The position numbers and the translations under genes are program-made. A stretch of DNA of 64,000 nt, from NCBI RefSeq assembly GCF_023330665.1, contig NZ_CP097127.1, forward strand, positions 2,356,001-2,420,000. The letters run 5' to 3'. Positions 14,022 through 43,171 of the stretch are shown piece by piece. The first letter of the stretch is position 1. Every line of letters begins with the position of its first letter. Below the pieces are notes generated by a model. It had not been told where the DNA came from. It did not search any database and saw only the letters and a list, made by a program, of their open reading frames with translations. Source of the stretch: Conexibacter sp. S30A1 (GTDB lineage Bacteria; Actinomycetota; Thermoleophilia; Solirubrobacterales; Solirubrobacteraceae).

Positions 14022-14154
14022 CAACCACGAGCGTAGGCGCCGGGCACGGTGCGAGCAGCCGGGCATCCGCCCAGGCTGACACGTAGTTATCCGCAGCCAC
14101 GCCTGCGGCAGCGAGCGGGTGCGAGCGGGCGGGCGCGGCTGTGTAATCGGCAGG

Positions 14155-16527
14155 GTGACCAACCCGACCACACACCCCCCGCTTGACCACGCCGAGCTTG
14201 AGCAGCTCGACCGCTGGTGGCGTGCCGCCAACTACCTCTCCGTGGGACAGATCTATCTGCTTGACAACCCGCTGCTGCACGAGCCGCTTAGCGCCGAGCA
14301 CATCAAACCGAGGCTGCTCGGCCACTGGGGCACAACCCCGGGCCTCAACTTCATCTACGCCCACATGAACCGTGCGATCAACGCTCGGGAGCTGGACGCG
14401 ATCTATATCGCCGGCCCCGGCCACGGCGGGCCAGCAATGGTCGCAAGCGCCTATCTGGACGGCACCTACAGCGATACCTACCCTCGGATATCACGCGACG
14501 AGGCCGGCCTTGCGCGGCTGTTTCGCCAGTTCTCCTTCCCGGGGGGAATCCCGAGCCACGTTGCGCCGGAGACACCCGGATCGATTAACGAGGGCGGCGA
14601 GCTCGGCTACAGCCTGCTGCATGCCTATGGGGCGGTCTTTGACAACCCCTCGCTGCTGGCGGTGTGCGTGGTTGGTGACGGCGAAGCCGAGACCGGACCC
14701 CTGGCCGCCAGCTGGCATTCCAACAAGTTCCTGAACGCGGCACACGATGGGGCGGTGCTGCCGATCCTGCACCTGAACGGGTACAAGATCGCAAACCCGA
14801 CCGTGCTGGCGAGGATTCCCGAGCGGGAGCTGAAAGCGTTGCTCGAGGGCTACGGCTACGCCGCCCACTTCGTCTCGGGCGACGAGCCCACGACGATGCA
14901 CCAGCTGATGGCCGCCACCCTCGATCAGGTGCTCGACCGGATCGCTGCGATCCAGGCCCAGGCGCGTGGCGGCGGGCTGGCGGAGCGCCCGGCCTGGCCG
15001 ATGATCGTGCTGCGCACCCCAAAGGGCTGGACCGGCCCCAAGACCGTGGACGGCCTGCCGGTGGAGGGCACGTTCCGCGCCCACCAGGTGCCGCTTGCCG
15101 AGGTGCGCACAAACCCCGAGCACCTGGCGGCGCTTGAGCAGTGGCTGCACAGCTACGCGCCCGAGGAGCTCTTCGACGAGTCTGGCCGCGTCCACGATGA
15201 CATCACGGCGCTCGCCCCGCAGGGCGAGCGCCGGATGAGCGCCAACCCGCACGCCAACGGTGGTGCGCTGACAAGACCACTCGAGCTGCCCGACTTCCGC
15301 AACTACGCCGTGGCAGTGCAGAGCCCCGCGCGCAGCACCAGCGAGGCCACACGCGTGCTCGGCACCTGGCTGCGGGACGTGATCGCCCAAAACCCCGAGA
15401 ACTTCCGCGTCTTCGGGCCGGACGAGACGATGTCAAACCGCCTGAACGCGGTCTTTGAGGCGACCGAGCGCCAGTGGTCGGCCTCGATCCAGCCCGGCGA
15501 CGATCACCTGGCCCCCCACGGCCAGGTGATGGAGGTGCTCTCCGAGCACCTCTGCGAAGGCTGGCTCGAGGGCTACCTGCTGACCGGTCGCCACGGCCTC
15601 TTCAACTGCTACGAGGCGTTCATCCACATCGTCGACTCGATGTTCAACCAGCACGCCAAGTGGCTGAAGGTGACCCGCGGGATCTCCTGGCGCGAGCCGC
15701 TGCCTTCACTGAACTACCTCCTCTCAAGCCACGTCTGGCGCCAGGATCACAACGGCTTCTCGCACCAGGATCCGGGCTTCATCGATCGTGTCGTCAACAA
15801 GAAGGCGGAGGTCGTGCGCGTCTACCTGCCGCCGGACGCCAACTGCCTGCTGTCGGTCGCCGACCACTGCCTGCGCAGCCGCGACTACGTCAACGTGATC
15901 GTGGCGGGCAAGCAGCCGGCGCTCGACTACCTCGACATGGACGCGGCCGTGGCGCACTGCACCCGCGGGCTCGGGATCTGGGAGTGGGCTTCCAACGAGA
16001 CCGGCTCGGAGCCCGATGTCGTGCTGGCCTGCGCCGGTGACATCCCGACGCTCGAGACCGTCGCCGCGGCGGCGATCCTGCGTGAGCGCCTGCCCGAGCT
16101 GAAGGTGCGGGTCATCAACGTCGTCGACCTGATGCGTCTGCAACCGGAGCAGGAGCACCCACACGGTCTCTCAGACAGCGAGTTCGACGCGCTGTTCACC
16201 ACCTCCCGTCCGGTGATCTTCGCCTACCACGGCTACCCGTGGCTGATCCACCGGCTCACCTACCGGCGCACCAACCACGGCTCGATCCATGTGCGCGGAT
16301 ACAAGGAGGAGGGCACCACCACGACGCCGTTTGACATGGTGATGCTCAACGACCTGGACCGCTTCCACCTGGTGATGGACGTGATCGACCGCGTGCCCGG
16401 GCTCGGCGAGCGGGCCGCACTGCTGCGCCAGGAGATGGCCGACCAGCGTCTGGCACACCGCGCCTACACGCGCGAGCACGGCGACGACCCGACCGACGTG
16501 CGTGAGTGGACGTGGCCCGCGTCCTGA
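14155..16527 (+). CDS. xfp: Xylulose-5-phosphate/fructose-6-phosphate phosphoketolase
   Basis: This 790-residue thiamine-diphosphate enzyme cleaves xylulose-5-P or fructose-6-P with phosphate to acetyl-phosphate plus glyceraldehyde-3-P or erythrose-4-P. Family hallmarks are visible: the N-terminal [23 protein letters not shown], the ThDP motif [19 protein letters not shown], and a C-terminal ending in [15 protein letters not shown]. The length is typical (about 790-825). A GTG at 14155 was preferred because an in-frame codon 36 bases further upstream adds only Arg/Gly-rich residues not typical of the family. Its end overlaps the acetate kinase start by 22 bases, which makes a compact phosphoketolase-acetate kinase operon. 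Confidence 0.93.
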
Positions 16528-17537
16528 CCGTAAACGTGGGGTCGACCTCGCTCAAGCTCGCGCTGCTGGCAGAGGGTTCTGAGCAGCCGCTGGCCGCGCG
16601 GGAGCTGCCCGCGCCGGCAGCCGGCGGCAGCCTGGCGCAGCTTGGCGAAGTGCTCGCCGGCGAGCTTTCAGGCGCCGACTGCGTCGCGCACCGCATCGTC
16701 CACGGCGGCGAGCGCTTCCGCACGGCGGCACTCATCGACGCGGAGGTCCGGGCCGAGCTCGAGCAGCTGGCAGCGCTCGCGCCGCTGCACCAGCCGCTGG
16801 CGCTGGCGATACTCGACGCCACAACCAAGGTGCTGCCAGGGCTGCCGGCTGTGGCCTGCTTCGATACCGCCTTTCACTCGACGCTGCCGCAGGCCGCCAG
16901 CACCTTCGCGCTGCCGGCCGCGTGGCGCGAGCGCTTCAGGCTTCGCCGCTACGGCTTCCACGGACTTTCGCACGCGCACGTTGCGCGAGAGGTCGCCGCG
17001 CGGTTGGGGCCGGGGCTGCGGCTGATCAGCTGCCACCTCGGGGCCGGCGCGTCGCTGTGCGCGATCGCGGACGGCCACTCGGTTGACACGACGATGGGCT
17101 TCACGCCGCTCGACGGCCTCGTGATGGCAACACGCTCAGGCAGCGTCGACCCGGGCCTGATCCTGTGGCTGCTCGAGCAGGGCGGGCTGAGCACCGCGGA
17201 GGTGGCAGACGGGCTGGAGCACCAGTCAGGGCTGCGCGGCCTGGCCGCAAGCGCGGACATGCGCACGGTGCTGGCCTCCCGGGCCGCGGGCGACCCGGCG
17301 GCAAAGCTCGCGATCGACGTCTACCTGCACCGGCTGCGCGCCGCCATCGGCTCGATGCTCGCCGCGCTCGCGGGCGTGGACGTGATCGCCTTCACCGGCG
17401 GGGTCGGCGAGAGCTCGCACGAGATCCGCGAGGGGGCGCTCGCCGGGCTCGAGGCGCTGATCGGCGATGCCCGCGTGTTGGTGGTGGCCGCCCGCGAGGA
17501 CCTGGAGATGGCGCGCCAGGCCCGCACACTCCTGTGA
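16506..17537 (+). CDS. ackA: Acetate kinase (short form)
   Basis: This 343-residue ASKHA-fold kinase interconverts acetyl-phosphate + ADP and acetate + ATP. Matches include the N-terminal phosphate loop [45 protein letters not shown], and the adenosine-site FTGGVGESS. It is shorter than the usual roughly 400 residues; the loss appears spread over the middle and C-terminus and not through a frameshift, and all named motifs remain. The start is GTG (16506) or the GTG two codons on. Overlap with the phosphoketolase gene implies co-translation and ATP gain from the phosphoketolase product. Confidence 0.9.
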
Positions 17538-38475: not shown

Positions 38476-38598
38476 TTGAGCAGTGTGGTTCGCGCAGCAA
38501 TCTCGCAGACCGGGCGAACTGGGGACAGGCCGTCAATGCTCGACAAGCACGAGCGCTTTGCGGCACTGGCGCGGGAGCGCCTTACGTGCTCACCCTGA
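38476..38598 (+). CDS. Possible small protein (40 aa) with strong translation signals
   Basis: A TTG start lies 7 bases after GAAGGAGG, a near-perfect Shine-Dalgarno site, downstream of a promoter-like pair. The encoded 40 residues (including MLDKHERFAALARERLTCSP at the C-terminus) match no family I know. The frame ends 72 bases before the 592-residue gene, so this could be a leader peptide or a small co-transcribed protein. An internal ATG could give a 20-residue form. Evidence rests on the expression signals only. Confidence 0.35.
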   Translation: MSSVVRAAISQTGRTGDRPSMLDKHERFAALARERLTCSP

Positions 38599-38670
38599 TC
38601 GCCGTCGCGGGCTTGATCGGGCGCTCGTGCCCGCCCGCCGCCGACGGGGTCCCGTACGTGAAGGACTAGC

Positions 38671-40449
38671 GTGTCCGTCGCCAGACTCTCGATCACCACG
38701 CTCGGCGAGGGCGGCGAGCGCCTCTCGGACGAGGTTGAGCTCTACGAGCGGACCTACTCGACGCTGCTTCGCTCGAGCGGTGAGACCAGGCTGCGCGTGC
38801 TCGAGTCGTCACACCGGGCGATGCGCTCGAGCCTGCACGCGCTGGCCGACAGCGAGCAGATCGACCTGGGCGCCTTCCTGTATGCGGTGGCGCGCCTGCC
38901 GGAGGCGATCGCCGGCGCCCGGCGCGTGATCATGGGCCAGTCGGTTGACTCGCTGGCGGCCGACGGCCTGGACGTCAGTCGCTGGCCGGAGGCCGAGTCG
39001 CCGGCTCGCCGGCGGCGCTGGTACGTGGGGCCCGACGGCACGCTGGCGGTGCTGATCGCAAGCTCCTCCGACGTCGATGACCTCGTGCCCACCCTGGTCG
39101 CCTACCAGATCGAGTGGAACAAGATGCACCTGCACCTGGCGGGCGCCGGCAGCCAGCTGCGCGCTAGCCCCGATCCCGAGACGTGCGCACGCCTGCTGGG
39201 CGGTGGCGACGATGACTGGCAACGGCTGCATGAGGCCTGGGGCAAGCACTTCGCAGAGCGTCTCGAGCTGGTCGGCGCCCGCCGCCTGTCGCTGCGCATC
39301 AGAATGCTCGGCGGCAGCAACGCCGGCTACGCCCGCATGACACGGCGCTGGTGGGCCCCGATCCAGACCGAGCTCGGGCAGATGCCCAAAGAGCATGCGA
39401 GGAGCGCCGCTGAGAAAGCCGGCAGCGGTGCCGCTGGCCAGCGGGCCAGCGGCACCGAGGAAGGCGCGCTCTACTTCGTCTCCTCAAACACGCACAGCCT
39501 GGTCAACATCGCCACCGGCATCGCCCGTGATCGCGAGGCTCAGCTGATCGCCTTCGTGGAGTCGCTGCCGGCGGATGATGTGCTGCGCGAGGAGCTCGAG
39601 CGTTTTCGCGCGGGCGAGAGCGAGGGCTCGTGGGAGAACTTTCTGTACTTCGCGGCCGGACAGTGGTTTGGCAAGCGGGGCGCGCCCGGCGCCGCCGAGC
39701 GGCGTCAGGCGGAGGCCGCCTACGGTGTCAGGCACCTGCGCAGCGCCACGGCGCTGCGCGTCTCCGCCCAGCTGATACCGCTGGCGGCGCTGAGCGTGCA
39801 CTCGCTCGACCCGCGGCTCGGCGAGGTGGACGCGGCGGCACTCGCGGCCAGCCGAGCCCGGATCGTCAACATCGACTACCCGCTCGGGGTGGCGGCCTAC
39901 AACATCCTGCGCGAGGTGGCGATCGACGCGACCTCGCTGCGCGGCGTGTACGTGCTCGGCAAGGCCGCGACGCTCAACGCCGACGTCGGCGACGTGCTGA
40001 TCTCGAGCGTCGTGCACGACGAGCACTCGCGCTCCACCTACTGGCTTGACAACGCCTTCAGCGTCGAGGACCTGGCGGGCGATCTGCGCTTCGGCACCGG
40101 CCTTGACAACCAGCGCGCGGTGACTGTGAAGTCCACGTTCCTGCAGAACCGCGCCTACCTGGACTTCTACTATCGCGAGGCGTTCACCGTGGTGGAGATG
40201 GAGGCCGGACCGTTCTTGAACGCGGTCTACGAGCTCGCCGACCCCGATCGCTTCCCGGTCGGAGAGGCGATCAACTTCTCCAAGCTGCCGATCGATTTGG
40301 GGATCATCCACTACGCCTCAGACACCCCCTACACGCAGGCGCGCACGCTGGGGGCACGAGGCCTCTCCTACTACGGCATGGACTCCACCTACGCTTCGTC
40401 GCTTGCGATCCTCAGGCGGATCCTGAAGCTCGAGGGCATCCTCGGCTAG
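38671..40449 (+). CDS. 592-aa protein with nucleoside-phosphorylase-like C-terminal region
   Basis: I do not recognise a named family with certainty. The N-terminal 300 residues (ELYERTYSTLLRSSGETRLR, EWNKMHLHLAG, SSNTHSLVNIATGIARDREA) are unlike anything I can place. From about residue 385 the order of motifs mimics phosphorylase I enzymes: a GK-A-TLNADVGDVLISS segment like the GDVVI strand, then AVTVKSTFLQNR followed by VVEMEAGPFLNAVYE, where the EMEA resembles the nucleoside-site glutamate. The neighbours are phosphopentomutase and an adenosine-deaminase-like enzyme, so a role in nucleoside or nucleotide breakdown is inferred. The GTG start at 38671 follows the possible 40-aa ORF by 72 bp. 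No membrane segment is seen. Confidence 0.75.
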   Translation: MSVARLSITTLGEGGERLSDEVELYERTYSTLLRSSGETRLRVLESSHRAMRSSLHALADSEQIDLGAFLYAVARLPEAIAGARRVIMGQSVDSLAADGLDVSRWPEAESPARRRRWYVGPDGTLAVLIASSSDVDDLVPTLVAYQIEWNKMHLHLAGAGSQLRASPDPETCARLLGGGDDDWQRLHEAWGKHFAERLELVGARRLSLRIRMLGGSNAGYARMTRRWWAPIQTELGQMPKEHARSAAEKAGSGAAGQRASGTEEGALYFVSSNTHSLVNIATGIARDREAQLIAFVESLPADDVLREELERFRAGESEGSWENFLYFAAGQWFGKRGAPGAAERRQAEAAYGVRHLRSATALRVSAQLIPLAALSVHSLDPRLGEVDAAALAASRARIVNIDYPLGVAAYNILREVAIDATSLRGVYVLGKAATLNADVGDVLISSVVHDEHSRSTYWLDNAFSVEDLAGDLRFGTGLDNQRAVTVKSTFLQNRAYLDFYYREAFTVVEMEAGPFLNAVYELADPDRFPVGEAINFSKLPIDLGIIHYASDTPYTQARTLGARGLSYYGMDSTYASSLAILRRILKLEGILG

Positions 40450-40479
40450 CGCCCGGCGTGTGCGACGCTCGGGACCCGG

Positions 40480-41631
40480 ATGCGCAGAGCCTTCGTGATC
40501 GTGCTTGACGCCTGCGGCGTCGGCGCCCTGCCGGACGCCGCCGCCTACGGCGACAGCCCCGACGCGAACACGCTCGCGCACGTGGCAGAGCTCGCCGGCG
40601 GACTCTACCTGCCGACGCTCGGCGCGCTCGGACTCGGCTCGATCGAGCCGATCAGGGGGGTGGCGCGAGCGCCGGCGCCGGTGCTGCACGGCCGCCTGGC
40701 GCCGCTTGGGCCCGGCAAGGAGTCGGTCACAGGCCACTGGGAGATGATGGGTGTGGTCCCCAAGGCGCCGCTGCCGACCTATCCGGAGGGCTTCCCGGCG
40801 GAGCTTGTGCGGGCACTCGAACGGGCAACCGGCCGGCGCTTCTGCTGCAACCGGCCCTACAGCGGCACGCAGGTGCTCGAGGATTACGGCCCCCACCACC
40901 TGCGCACCGGTGAGCTGATCCTCTACACCTCCGCCGACTCGGTGCTGCAGATCGCCGCACACCACGACGTGCTCTCAGAGCCGGAGCTACAGCGGGTGTG
41001 CGCCGCCGCGCGCGCGGTGATGAGTGGCGAGCACGCCGTCGGGCGGGTGATCGCCCGCCCCTTCACCGGCACGCCGGGCGCGTTCGTGCGCACCGCCGGG
41101 CGGCACGACTATGCACTTGAGCCGCCGGGGCGCTCCTACCTGCAGGAGCTCAGGGACGCCGGCGTGCCGGTGCACGCCGTGGGCAAGATCCGCGACCTGT
41201 TCGCCGGGGTTGGGATCGACGTCGCCCACCGGGGCGCGACCAATGCCCAGGCACTGCAGTCAACCGAGGCCCTGATCGGGGAGCTCGGGAGCGGGCTGGT
41301 CTTCACCAACCTGGTCGACACCGACCAGCTGTTCGGCCACCGTCACGACGTGGCAGGCTTTGCGGCCGCGCTTGCGGAGATTGACACGGCCCTCGGCCGC
41401 TGGCTCGAGCGGCTCGGCGACGAGGACCTGCTGATCCTGACCGCCGATCATGGCGTTGACCCGCTGTCGGGCCACACCGACCACACGCGCGAGCACGCGC
41501 TGCTCTTGGCGCGCTTTCGGGGCGCAGGCGGGCGCCGGCACGACGGGCTGCTGGCCGACGTGGGCGCGAGCGTGCTGCGCTGGCTGGCCGGCACAGACGC
41601 GCCGGCGCTGCCCGGTCGGTCCTTCGTCTGA
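40480..41631 (+). CDS. deoB: Phosphopentomutase
   Basis: This 383-residue alkaline-phosphatase-superfamily enzyme interconverts (deoxy)ribose-1-P and (deoxy)ribose-5-P. VIVLDACGVGALPDA, DANTLAHVAE, GKESVTGHWEMMG, YTSADSVLQIAAH, AVGKIRDLFAGVGI and LTADHGVDP supply the metal and phosphoryl sites. The length is typical. It starts 30 bp after the 592-residue gene, so they are likely co-transcribed, consistent with a phosphorolytic nucleoside pathway. Confidence 0.94.
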   Translation: MRRAFVIVLDACGVGALPDAAAYGDSPDANTLAHVAELAGGLYLPTLGALGLGSIEPIRGVARAPAPVLHGRLAPLGPGKESVTGHWEMMGVVPKAPLPTYPEGFPAELVRALERATGRRFCCNRPYSGTQVLEDYGPHHLRTGELILYTSADSVLQIAAHHDVLSEPELQRVCAAARAVMSGEHAVGRVIARPFTGTPGAFVRTAGRHDYALEPPGRSYLQELRDAGVPVHAVGKIRDLFAGVGIDVAHRGATNAQALQSTEALIGELGSGLVFTNLVDTDQLFGHRHDVAGFAAALAEIDTALGRWLERLGDEDLLILTADHGVDPLSGHTDHTREHALLLARFRGAGGRRHDGLLADVGASVLRWLAGTDAPALPGRSFV

Positions 41632-42202
41632 GGCGCTCCGGCGGGCGATAGCGTCGCGACGGCTTGGTGCCACTGACCGTCGTCGTGGGAGGCCGGGCTC
41701 AGACCGTCTTGGCGCTGTTCGGCCGGACCCCAGTGATGAGCTGGCCGGTGTCGGTCATGTAGGCGTGCCGGTCATGCCTGCTGGAGAGGCCAGTTGGCGA
41801 GTTTCCGACCCCACGAGCATCCCTTCGGGAGTGGTGGTCTTGAACCGCGTCTCGATCGAGAACACGCTCGGCGGGACCGTGAACGCCTAGCCGGCGGCAA
41901 GCGTGGAAAGAACCGGTGCTAAACCGGGTTCGCTCAACGCTCACGCTCCCGCCACCACCTCGTGCTGGATCACGTTCTGTGGCGTGCGAAGCGCCCGCCA
42001 CAGCCACGGAGACCAGGTCACGAGCAACACCACCACCCGACCACAGCGCGTAGCCGTCGGCGGCCGCGACCTCCGGGGTTGGCTCGGCGCCGTCGTAGAG
42101 GTTGCGCAGCAGCGCGAGCCCCTCGACCCCGGCAAGCAGCTCGCACGCAGAGCCGCTCCTGACCATCGCCGTGGCGAGCCTACCAGCGATAATCACGGCT
42201 CG
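41632..42202. other. Decayed stretch between deoB and the adenosine-deaminase-like gene
   Basis: About 570 bp hold no intact gene. Several short frames with mixed codon composition occur on both strands, with stops between them, as expected for degraded coding DNA. The right-hand part contains a probable gene fragment on the minus strand (42029-42166). A palindrome CTCGATCGAG lies near 41852. No transposase or terminator could be recognised. Confidence 0.5.
42029..42166 (-). pseudogene. 5' fragment of a probable methyltransferase gene
   Basis: From the ATG at 42166 about 40 codons read SACELLAGVEGLALLRNLYD and on to YALWS, with almost all codons ending in G or C. I recall similar openings in actinobacterial SAM-dependent methyltransferases, but that match is from memory. 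The codon pattern then breaks abruptly (a run of GGT GGT GGT GTT GCT CGT) and no methyltransferase motif follows, so it is a truncated remnant at best. It is divergent from the adenosine-deaminase-like gene. Confidence 0.3.
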
Positions 42203-43171
42203 ATGTTGCCGCAGGCCGAACTGCACGTGCACCTCGAGGGCACCGCGCCACCAGCGCTGATCGCCCGGATCGCCAAGCGCAACCGGATCGAGCTGCCGCC
42301 CGGCATGCTCGCGCCCGACGGGCGCTTTCACTTCCGCGACTTTCTGCACTTCCTGAACACCTACGACCTCGCGGCAAGCGTGATCCGCACCAGCGAGGAT
42401 TACCGCAACATCACCTACGAGTACCTCTCGAACGTGGCGCGCGAGGGCGGCGTCTACGTGGAGCTGACCGCCTCACCCGACCACGCGGCGCTCGTCGGCC
42501 TGGACGACGATGCGCACTACGGGGGCATCGCCCAGGGGATCGACGACGCCCGCCGCGACCATGGGATCGAGTCGCGCATCCTGGTCTCGGCGGTGCGTAA
42601 CTTCGGCCCCGAGCAGGCCCTGCGGGTCGCCCGTCGCGCCGCGCAGCGACCGCACCCCTACATCGTCGGCTTCAGCCTGGCGGGCGATGAGCGGGTGGCG
42701 CCGGCGCAGTTCGCCCCGGCCTATGAGGTGGCGGCCGCGGCGGGCCTCGGCTGCACGATCCACGCCGGCGAGTGGCAGGGCCCGAGCGCCATTCGCGAGG
42801 CGCTCAAGCTGCCCGTCACCCGCCTGGATCATGGGGCGCGCGCGAGCGAGGACCCCACTCTTCTGCACGAGCTCGCCGCCCGCGGGATGACGCTGAACGT
42901 CTGTCCGACCAGCAACGTGGTGCTCGGTGTCTACAGATCACTGTCCGAGCACCCGCTGCCACACCTCCACGGGTCCGGCGTGCGCGTCACCCTGGGCTCG
43001 GACGACCCGCCCTACTTCGGCGCCAGCCTGGCAGGGGAGTACGCGCTCTGCGCCGAGCACTTCGGCTGGTCTGAGCAGCAGCTGCGGGAGGTCACGGCGG
43101 CGGCGATAGACGCGGCCTTCTGCGACGAGCCGCTGAAGGCCGCGCTGCGGGAGCGGCTGCGAGCGCACTAG
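42203..43171 (+). CDS. add: Adenosine deaminase-family protein
   Basis: This 322-residue TIM-barrel metalloenzyme has the zinc motif AELHVHLEGTA (H8, H10) near the N-terminus, the zinc ligand in CTIHAGEWQGP, RLDHGARA, LNVCPTSNVVLG and LGSDDPPYFGASL, all of which correspond to the ADA/ADAL pattern. It probably removes the 6-amino group of adenosine or a related purine (adenine deaminase is an alternative). The frame is open for 300 more bases upstream but only as decayed sequence; the ATG at 42203 lies 7 codons before HVHLEG. Confidence 0.87.
   Translation: MLPQAELHVHLEGTAPPALIARIAKRNRIELPPGMLAPDGRFHFRDFLHFLNTYDLAASVIRTSEDYRNITYEYLSNVAREGGVYVELTASPDHAALVGLDDDAHYGGIAQGIDDARRDHGIESRILVSAVRNFGPEQALRVARRAAQRPHPYIVGFSLAGDERVAPAQFAPAYEVAAAAGLGCTIHAGEWQGPSAIREALKLPVTRLDHGARASEDPTLLHELAARGMTLNVCPTSNVVLGVYRSLSEHPLPHLHGSGVRVTLGSDDPPYFGASLAGEYALCAEHFGWSEQQLREVTAAAIDAAFCDEPLKAALRERLRAH

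Follow-up and report, generated by a model that had tools for sequence, protein, structure and literature searches.

We found that the 592-residue protein encoded at positions 38671 to 40449 of a 64,000-nucleotide stretch of the genome of Conexibacter sp. S30A1 (contig NZ_CP097127.1; the whole stretch is referred to here as the window) belongs to the family DUF6909 (Pfam PF21850), and that this is likely to be a new family with the nucleoside phosphorylase-I (NP-I) fold which cleaves nucleosides. The C-terminal two-thirds of the protein are predicted to have both the fold of nucleoside-splitting enzymes and their catalytic residues. In the reading which we favour, with a probability of roughly 0.55, residues 223–592 are predicted to form an NP-I catalytic domain which detaches the nucleobase from nucleosides, with phosphate as the probable co-substrate, and delivers pentose-1-phosphate to the phosphopentomutase DeoB. 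The gene and its parts are given below, with conservation counted across 201 partly redundant sequences (121 database proteins, including that of the window, and 80 loci).

38671..40449, + strand: DUF6909 gene, 592 aa, GTG start (open reading frame; PF21850, E = 1.5e-198; start common to 13 aligned relatives)
38719..39336, + strand: N-terminal domain, residues 17–222, without a significant fold match
39007..39015, + strand: R113–R115, three invariant arginines (201/201) of the N-terminal domain, a possible anion site
39337..40446, + strand: C-terminal domain, residues 223–592, predicted NP-I fold (structure prediction, fold search, profile alignment)
39958..39978, + strand: GKAATLN, residues 430–436; K431 (200/201) falls on DeoD Ser90 by eye
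40189..40206, + strand: VVEMEA, residues 507–512, the NP-I sugar-binding E-M-E, aligned to DeoD VEMEA (E509 and E511 201/201, M510 200/201)
40318..40329, + strand: SDTP, residues 550–553; D551 (201/201) matches the DeoD proton donor Asp204 in a low-probability alignment to VSDHIR

In the predicted structure an NP-I alpha/beta fold spans residues 223–589, and the top Foldseek match was MTAN (E = 7.7e-6), the two best matches being the hydrolases MTAN and AMP nucleosidase. The initial annotation, which had named an unrelated fold as the outcome that would count against its phosphorylase-like assignment, is not refuted on this point. It had also described an unplaced N-terminal half of 300 residues and a phosphorylase part from residue 380; since the enzyme-like domain starts near residue 223, the unplaced part is in fact about 220 residues long. 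A long helical stretch (residues 272–353) separates the first two strands of the C-terminal domain in the model, where the loop of DeoD is shorter, and the loop past D551 (residues 555–564) was modelled with low confidence. Weak sequence matches to the PDB (alpha-synuclein, a cadherin-related protein, folliculin and others; best E = 0.019) do not have the predicted fold and were rejected as chance.

We compared a profile of residues 264–592 to NP-I profiles built from E. coli DeoD, Udp, Mtn and Amn and from proteins of the sampled genomes. Against 37 NP-I sequences hhalign gave a score of 35.2 (probability 45%), compared to a mean of 14.6 and a maximum of 24.0 in 150 column-shuffled controls; against an NP-I profile of 16 sequences the score was 34.8 (probability 39%), with a maximum of 23.0 in 150 such controls. 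The GDVLI strand (residues 440–444) and VEMEA, in which the initial annotation had recognised a phosphorylase-like pattern, are set on the matching DeoD motifs by the profile alignment. The Met, Glu and Asp of the NP-I active site are all present in DUF6909 (M510, E511 and D551). E509 and E511 would hold the sugar, while D551 would protonate the leaving base in the manner of Asp204, the proton donor of E. coli DeoD according to an excerpt of PMC6193948. The loop at 555–564 resembles the mobile segments which are reported for DeoD in that excerpt and for Amn in an excerpt of PMC9584410.

The PF21850 match covers residues 41–586 and the full model (positions 1–535 of 535) at 660.9 bits, the curated cutoff being 27 bits, and 7060 of the 7998 candidates scored in a protein database search with the 592-residue protein fell below E = 0.001; on these two grounds the open reading frame noted at 38671 is a real gene. 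DUF6909 is a large bacterial family without an assigned function, with database entries which read hypothetical or DUF6909. An NCBIfam scan of the protein gave zero model matches, and no paper was found by a text search of the literature for DUF6909 or by a search combining nucleoside phosphorylase, domain of unknown function and phosphopentomutase. One copy is present in the genome, a single contig of 3.46 Mb (93.8% complete). At least 507 relatives were confirmed in a scan of genome contigs, 80 of which were surveyed together with the window (81 loci), with L150–L155, L157–L159, L161 and L162 treated as already surveyed genomes and each genome counted once. The 80 relatives come from Solirubrobacterales, Patulibacter, Dormibacterota, Ktedonobacteria, Thermomicrobia and other groups. 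The distribution is patchy: DUF6909 was found in 1 of 296 genomes sampled across the phylum (the Conexibacter genome itself), whereas in the order 45 of 232 genomes gave a match, of which 44 lie above the cutoff and G391 (19.9 bits) was excluded. Within the genus it is present in 14 further genomes.

Genes adjoining DUF6909 in the window are as follows.

38580..38669, + strand: permease remnant, the last 29 codons and stop of the second permease of an ATP-binding cassette (ABC) importer (tblastn 93% over 29 aa to locus L002, E = 1.2e-11)
40480..41631, + strand: deoB, phosphopentomutase (TIGR01696, 363.6 bits, cutoff 341.2)
42203..43171, + strand: adenosine deaminase gene, start re-assigned to the ATG at 42203 (TIGR01430, 301.2 bits, cutoff 216.55)

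The phosphopentomutase gene had been recognised correctly, and the gap between it and DUF6909 is 30 bp. The adenosine deaminase family of the next gene was also correct, but the family match opens near the ATG at 42203 and not at 41903, which places the gene 571 bp behind deoB and therefore not in tight linkage. The phosphoketolase gene which had been reported at 14 kb was confirmed at 14119–16527, and a route carrying carbon from DUF6909 and DeoB to this enzyme is possible, its sole basis being that both genes share the window. An acetate kinase gene (16506–17537, 343 aa) overlaps the end of the phosphoketolase gene; it may be shortened, as its match to PF00871 starts at position 80 of the profile.

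Homologues of DUF6909 do adjoin deoB and other nucleoside genes, as the initial annotation had expected. In 9 of the 14 genomes of the genus, tblastn placed the end of an ABC permease directly upstream, no more than 16 bp from where the DUF6909 match starts, and in 5 of the 14 it placed DeoB 16–110 bp past DUF6909, with DeoB 5.4 kb away in a sixth; the 14 include two fragments at contig edges, G422 and G426, which were scored as misses. The permease is also upstream in G505 (= L009), a genome of another family. The importer comprises a Bmp/PnrA-like binding protein (PF02608), an ABC ATPase and two BPD_transp_2 permeases. The order importer, DUF6909, DeoB occurs in several close relatives, and the importer is likely to be one for nucleosides. 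Further nucleoside genes at DUF6909 loci encode dihydropyrimidinase (L002, L013), DeoC (L002, L003, L005, L008, L013, G413), uracil phosphoribosyltransferase, Upp (L002, L005, L008, L011, L013, G413), PunA (L005, L013) and thymidine phosphorylase, DeoA (L005, L008, L013). L011 has no importer and carries a LOG-family gene, Upp and adenosine deaminase, while neither importer, DeoB nor other nucleoside genes were seen at L010 and L012. At the level of the order, DeoB is present in 38 of the 44 genomes with DUF6909 and in 59 of the 188 others (Fisher P = 2e-11, with kinship ignored), after removal of DeoB matches above E = 1e-10 (G382, G460).

At the DNA level the permease remnant gave a 120-bp blastn match to L002 (91.7% identity) which extends into DUF6909. 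Upstream of it, among the 15 loci compared, there were just matches of about 30 bp (E = 0.005) to unrelated places of L002 and L013, and no PF02608 match was found in the genome (93.8% complete). The importer has apparently been lost in this lineage by deletion or rearrangement with DUF6909 and DeoB retained, and the remnant together with the lack of PF02608 suggests that the pair outlived the importer. The substrate would then be nucleosides made in the cell or imported by another transporter, and the pentose-1-phosphate would be handed to the neighbouring DeoB. This neighbour favours a pentose-1-phosphate product and so phosphorolysis, which is a plausible mode of base cleavage. As no match to DeoC, the deoxyribose-phosphate aldolase, was found in the genome, the product here is most likely ribose-1-phosphate. 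No pyrimidine-nucleoside phosphorylase was found above cutoff in the genome (best 21 bits).

It should be noted that a number of results weigh against the reading which we favour. PF21850 is the sole Pfam family in the protein, with no PF01048 (PNP_UDP_1) match at E ≤ 1. A profile of the four E. coli proteins only gave a probability of 0.3%, its best local alignment setting VVEMEA on the E-M-E of DeoD and ASDTPYTQ on VSDHIRTHEQ at low probability; the Amn-only profile gave no match, and untrimmed profiles gave a weak P of 0.005 compared to 0.5 for the reversed profile. The phosphate ligands of DeoD, given in the excerpt of PMC6193948 as Arg24, Arg87, Ser90 and Arg43 of the adjacent subunit, are not conserved: by eye and with a two-residue gap Arg87 becomes V/I428 (199/201) and Ser90 becomes K431, and SSNTHSLVN offers no counterpart of Arg24. 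With these residues gone, DUF6909 is unlikely to be a standard phosphorylase. The gene context is also narrow, with DeoB adjacent in 6 of the 44 genomes of the order, all of them in the genus, many contigs being short. Within the genus DUF6909 is no guide to the presence of DeoB (13/15 with compared to 12/13 without). At loci from beyond the order most neighbours are non-nucleoside genes; of the 81 loci, 19 have a cation-efflux gene just downstream on the opposite strand and 12 have a PfkB kinase less than about 200 bp upstream, likewise on the opposite strand. The genome has two further NP-I genes, L082 (DeoD/Udp-like) and L083 (MTAP-like), both under NCBIfam cutoffs, and L013 encodes a PunA-type purine nucleoside phosphorylase and thymidine phosphorylase, which cover the obvious substrates. 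The latter suggests a different substrate for DUF6909 or overlapping use. That DUF6909 is the sole phosphorylase of its genome is ruled out by L082 and L083, and in L013 by PunA and DeoA. The nucleoside-salvage role originally proposed is partly supported: the fold and the deoB neighbours agree with it, phosphorolysis and the carbon route to the phosphoketolase are tentative, and the nucleoside neighbourhood is narrow.

The main rival to phosphorolysis is hydrolysis, in which DUF6909 would split nucleosides, or 5'-nucleotides in the manner of AMP nucleosidase, with water to give free pentose or pentose-5-phosphate. We regard this as unlikely, although the missing phosphate residues and the hydrolytic activity of both top Foldseek matches are in its favour. 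MTAN has the same catalytic Glu, Met and Asp as DUF6909; it differs in having about 230 residues and no N-terminal domain, and the Ser behind the fourth-strand Gly of E. coli Mtn falls on K431. Amn shares with DUF6909 an additional N-terminal domain preceding the NP-I domain, the S-D-x-P motif (SDKP in E. coli Amn) and, in the excerpt of PMC9584410, a conserved mobile loop behind the catalytic Asp, comparable to loop 555–564. That excerpt describes the N-terminal domain of Amn as variable, whereas the domain in DUF6909 has 33 invariant positions (45 sequences), and the deoB neighbour is a feature of DUF6909; comparisons of the two N-terminal domains did not establish a relationship. A neighbouring PfkB kinase, as at 12 of the surveyed loci, would suit free ribose. 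DUF6909 resembles DeoD and Udp, the hexameric purine and uridine phosphorylases (PF01048), in the predicted fold, E-M-E, the Asp204-type residue and the GDVLI strand, and E. coli deoD likewise neighbours deoB; it differs from them in the absence of a PF01048 match and of the Arg24, Arg87 and Ser90 ligands, in the helical stretch and in the large extra N-terminal domain.

In phosphorolysis, phosphate would be held by a rebuilt anion site, for which the conserved positions K431 (200/201), R382 and R113–115 (201/201) and R558 (Arg or Lys in 196/201) are candidates. A bolder and improbable extension is that the N-terminal domain represents half of a second, degraded NP-I fold which gives the invariant R113–115 to the anion site of the catalytic domain, a built-in partner that can be likened to the DeoD subunit supplying Arg43 to its neighbour; the rebuilt site would take nucleosides beyond those of PunA and DeoA at the same loci, and DUF6909 would be a new nucleoside-cleaving class. 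We consider it improbable that DUF6909 is a nucleoside-binding sensor or regulator which retains the NP-I pocket, with its adjacency to the importer reflecting regulation. The altered phosphate site, the canonical phosphorylases already present at some loci and the mostly non-nucleoside neighbours in other phyla fit such a role, but the 201 sequences all keep the catalytic residues, among them the proton donor D551, and these are not needed for binding alone, and Pfam found no DNA-binding domain in the protein.

Several other genes at these loci and in the genome were also observed. The Pfam scan of neighbours took 100 of 135 open reading frames, those omitted being mainly repeats from one Dormibacterota/Chloroflexota clade, and found PfkB 12 times and DNA methylase 6 times. 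The PfkB-type kinase occurs at L029:6892-7953 and 11 other loci of Dormibacterota/Chloroflexota type; for one example nucleoside kinase and ribokinase were the nearest NCBIfam models, under their cutoffs. At the nucleoside loci L002 (12591-13295) and L003, a 235-aa thymidylate-synthase-like protein, under NCBIfam cutoffs, is encoded beside aldehyde dehydrogenase genes. Upstream of the importer in L002 (3-2766), dihydropyrimidinase (TIGR02033) adjoins an F420-type LLM oxidoreductase (TIGR03842). The Conexibacter genome also encodes a 548-aa protein (L084:1324-2970; G000:C1 near 366989) in which an IspH domain, scoring above the cutoff of TIGR00216, is fused to a region resembling the hopanoid-associated phosphorylase HpnG, under cutoff.

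A family which is thousands strong and lacks an assigned function gains a testable one, likely nucleoside cleavage. As the permease remnant in the window indicates, DUF6909 and DeoB can persist jointly after loss of the importer. If our reading is true, a protein listed as hypothetical or DUF6909 in Solirubrobacterales, Dormibacterota and Chloroflexota would receive a name, and the NP-I superfamily would gain a branch whose N-terminal domain is new and whose anion site differs.
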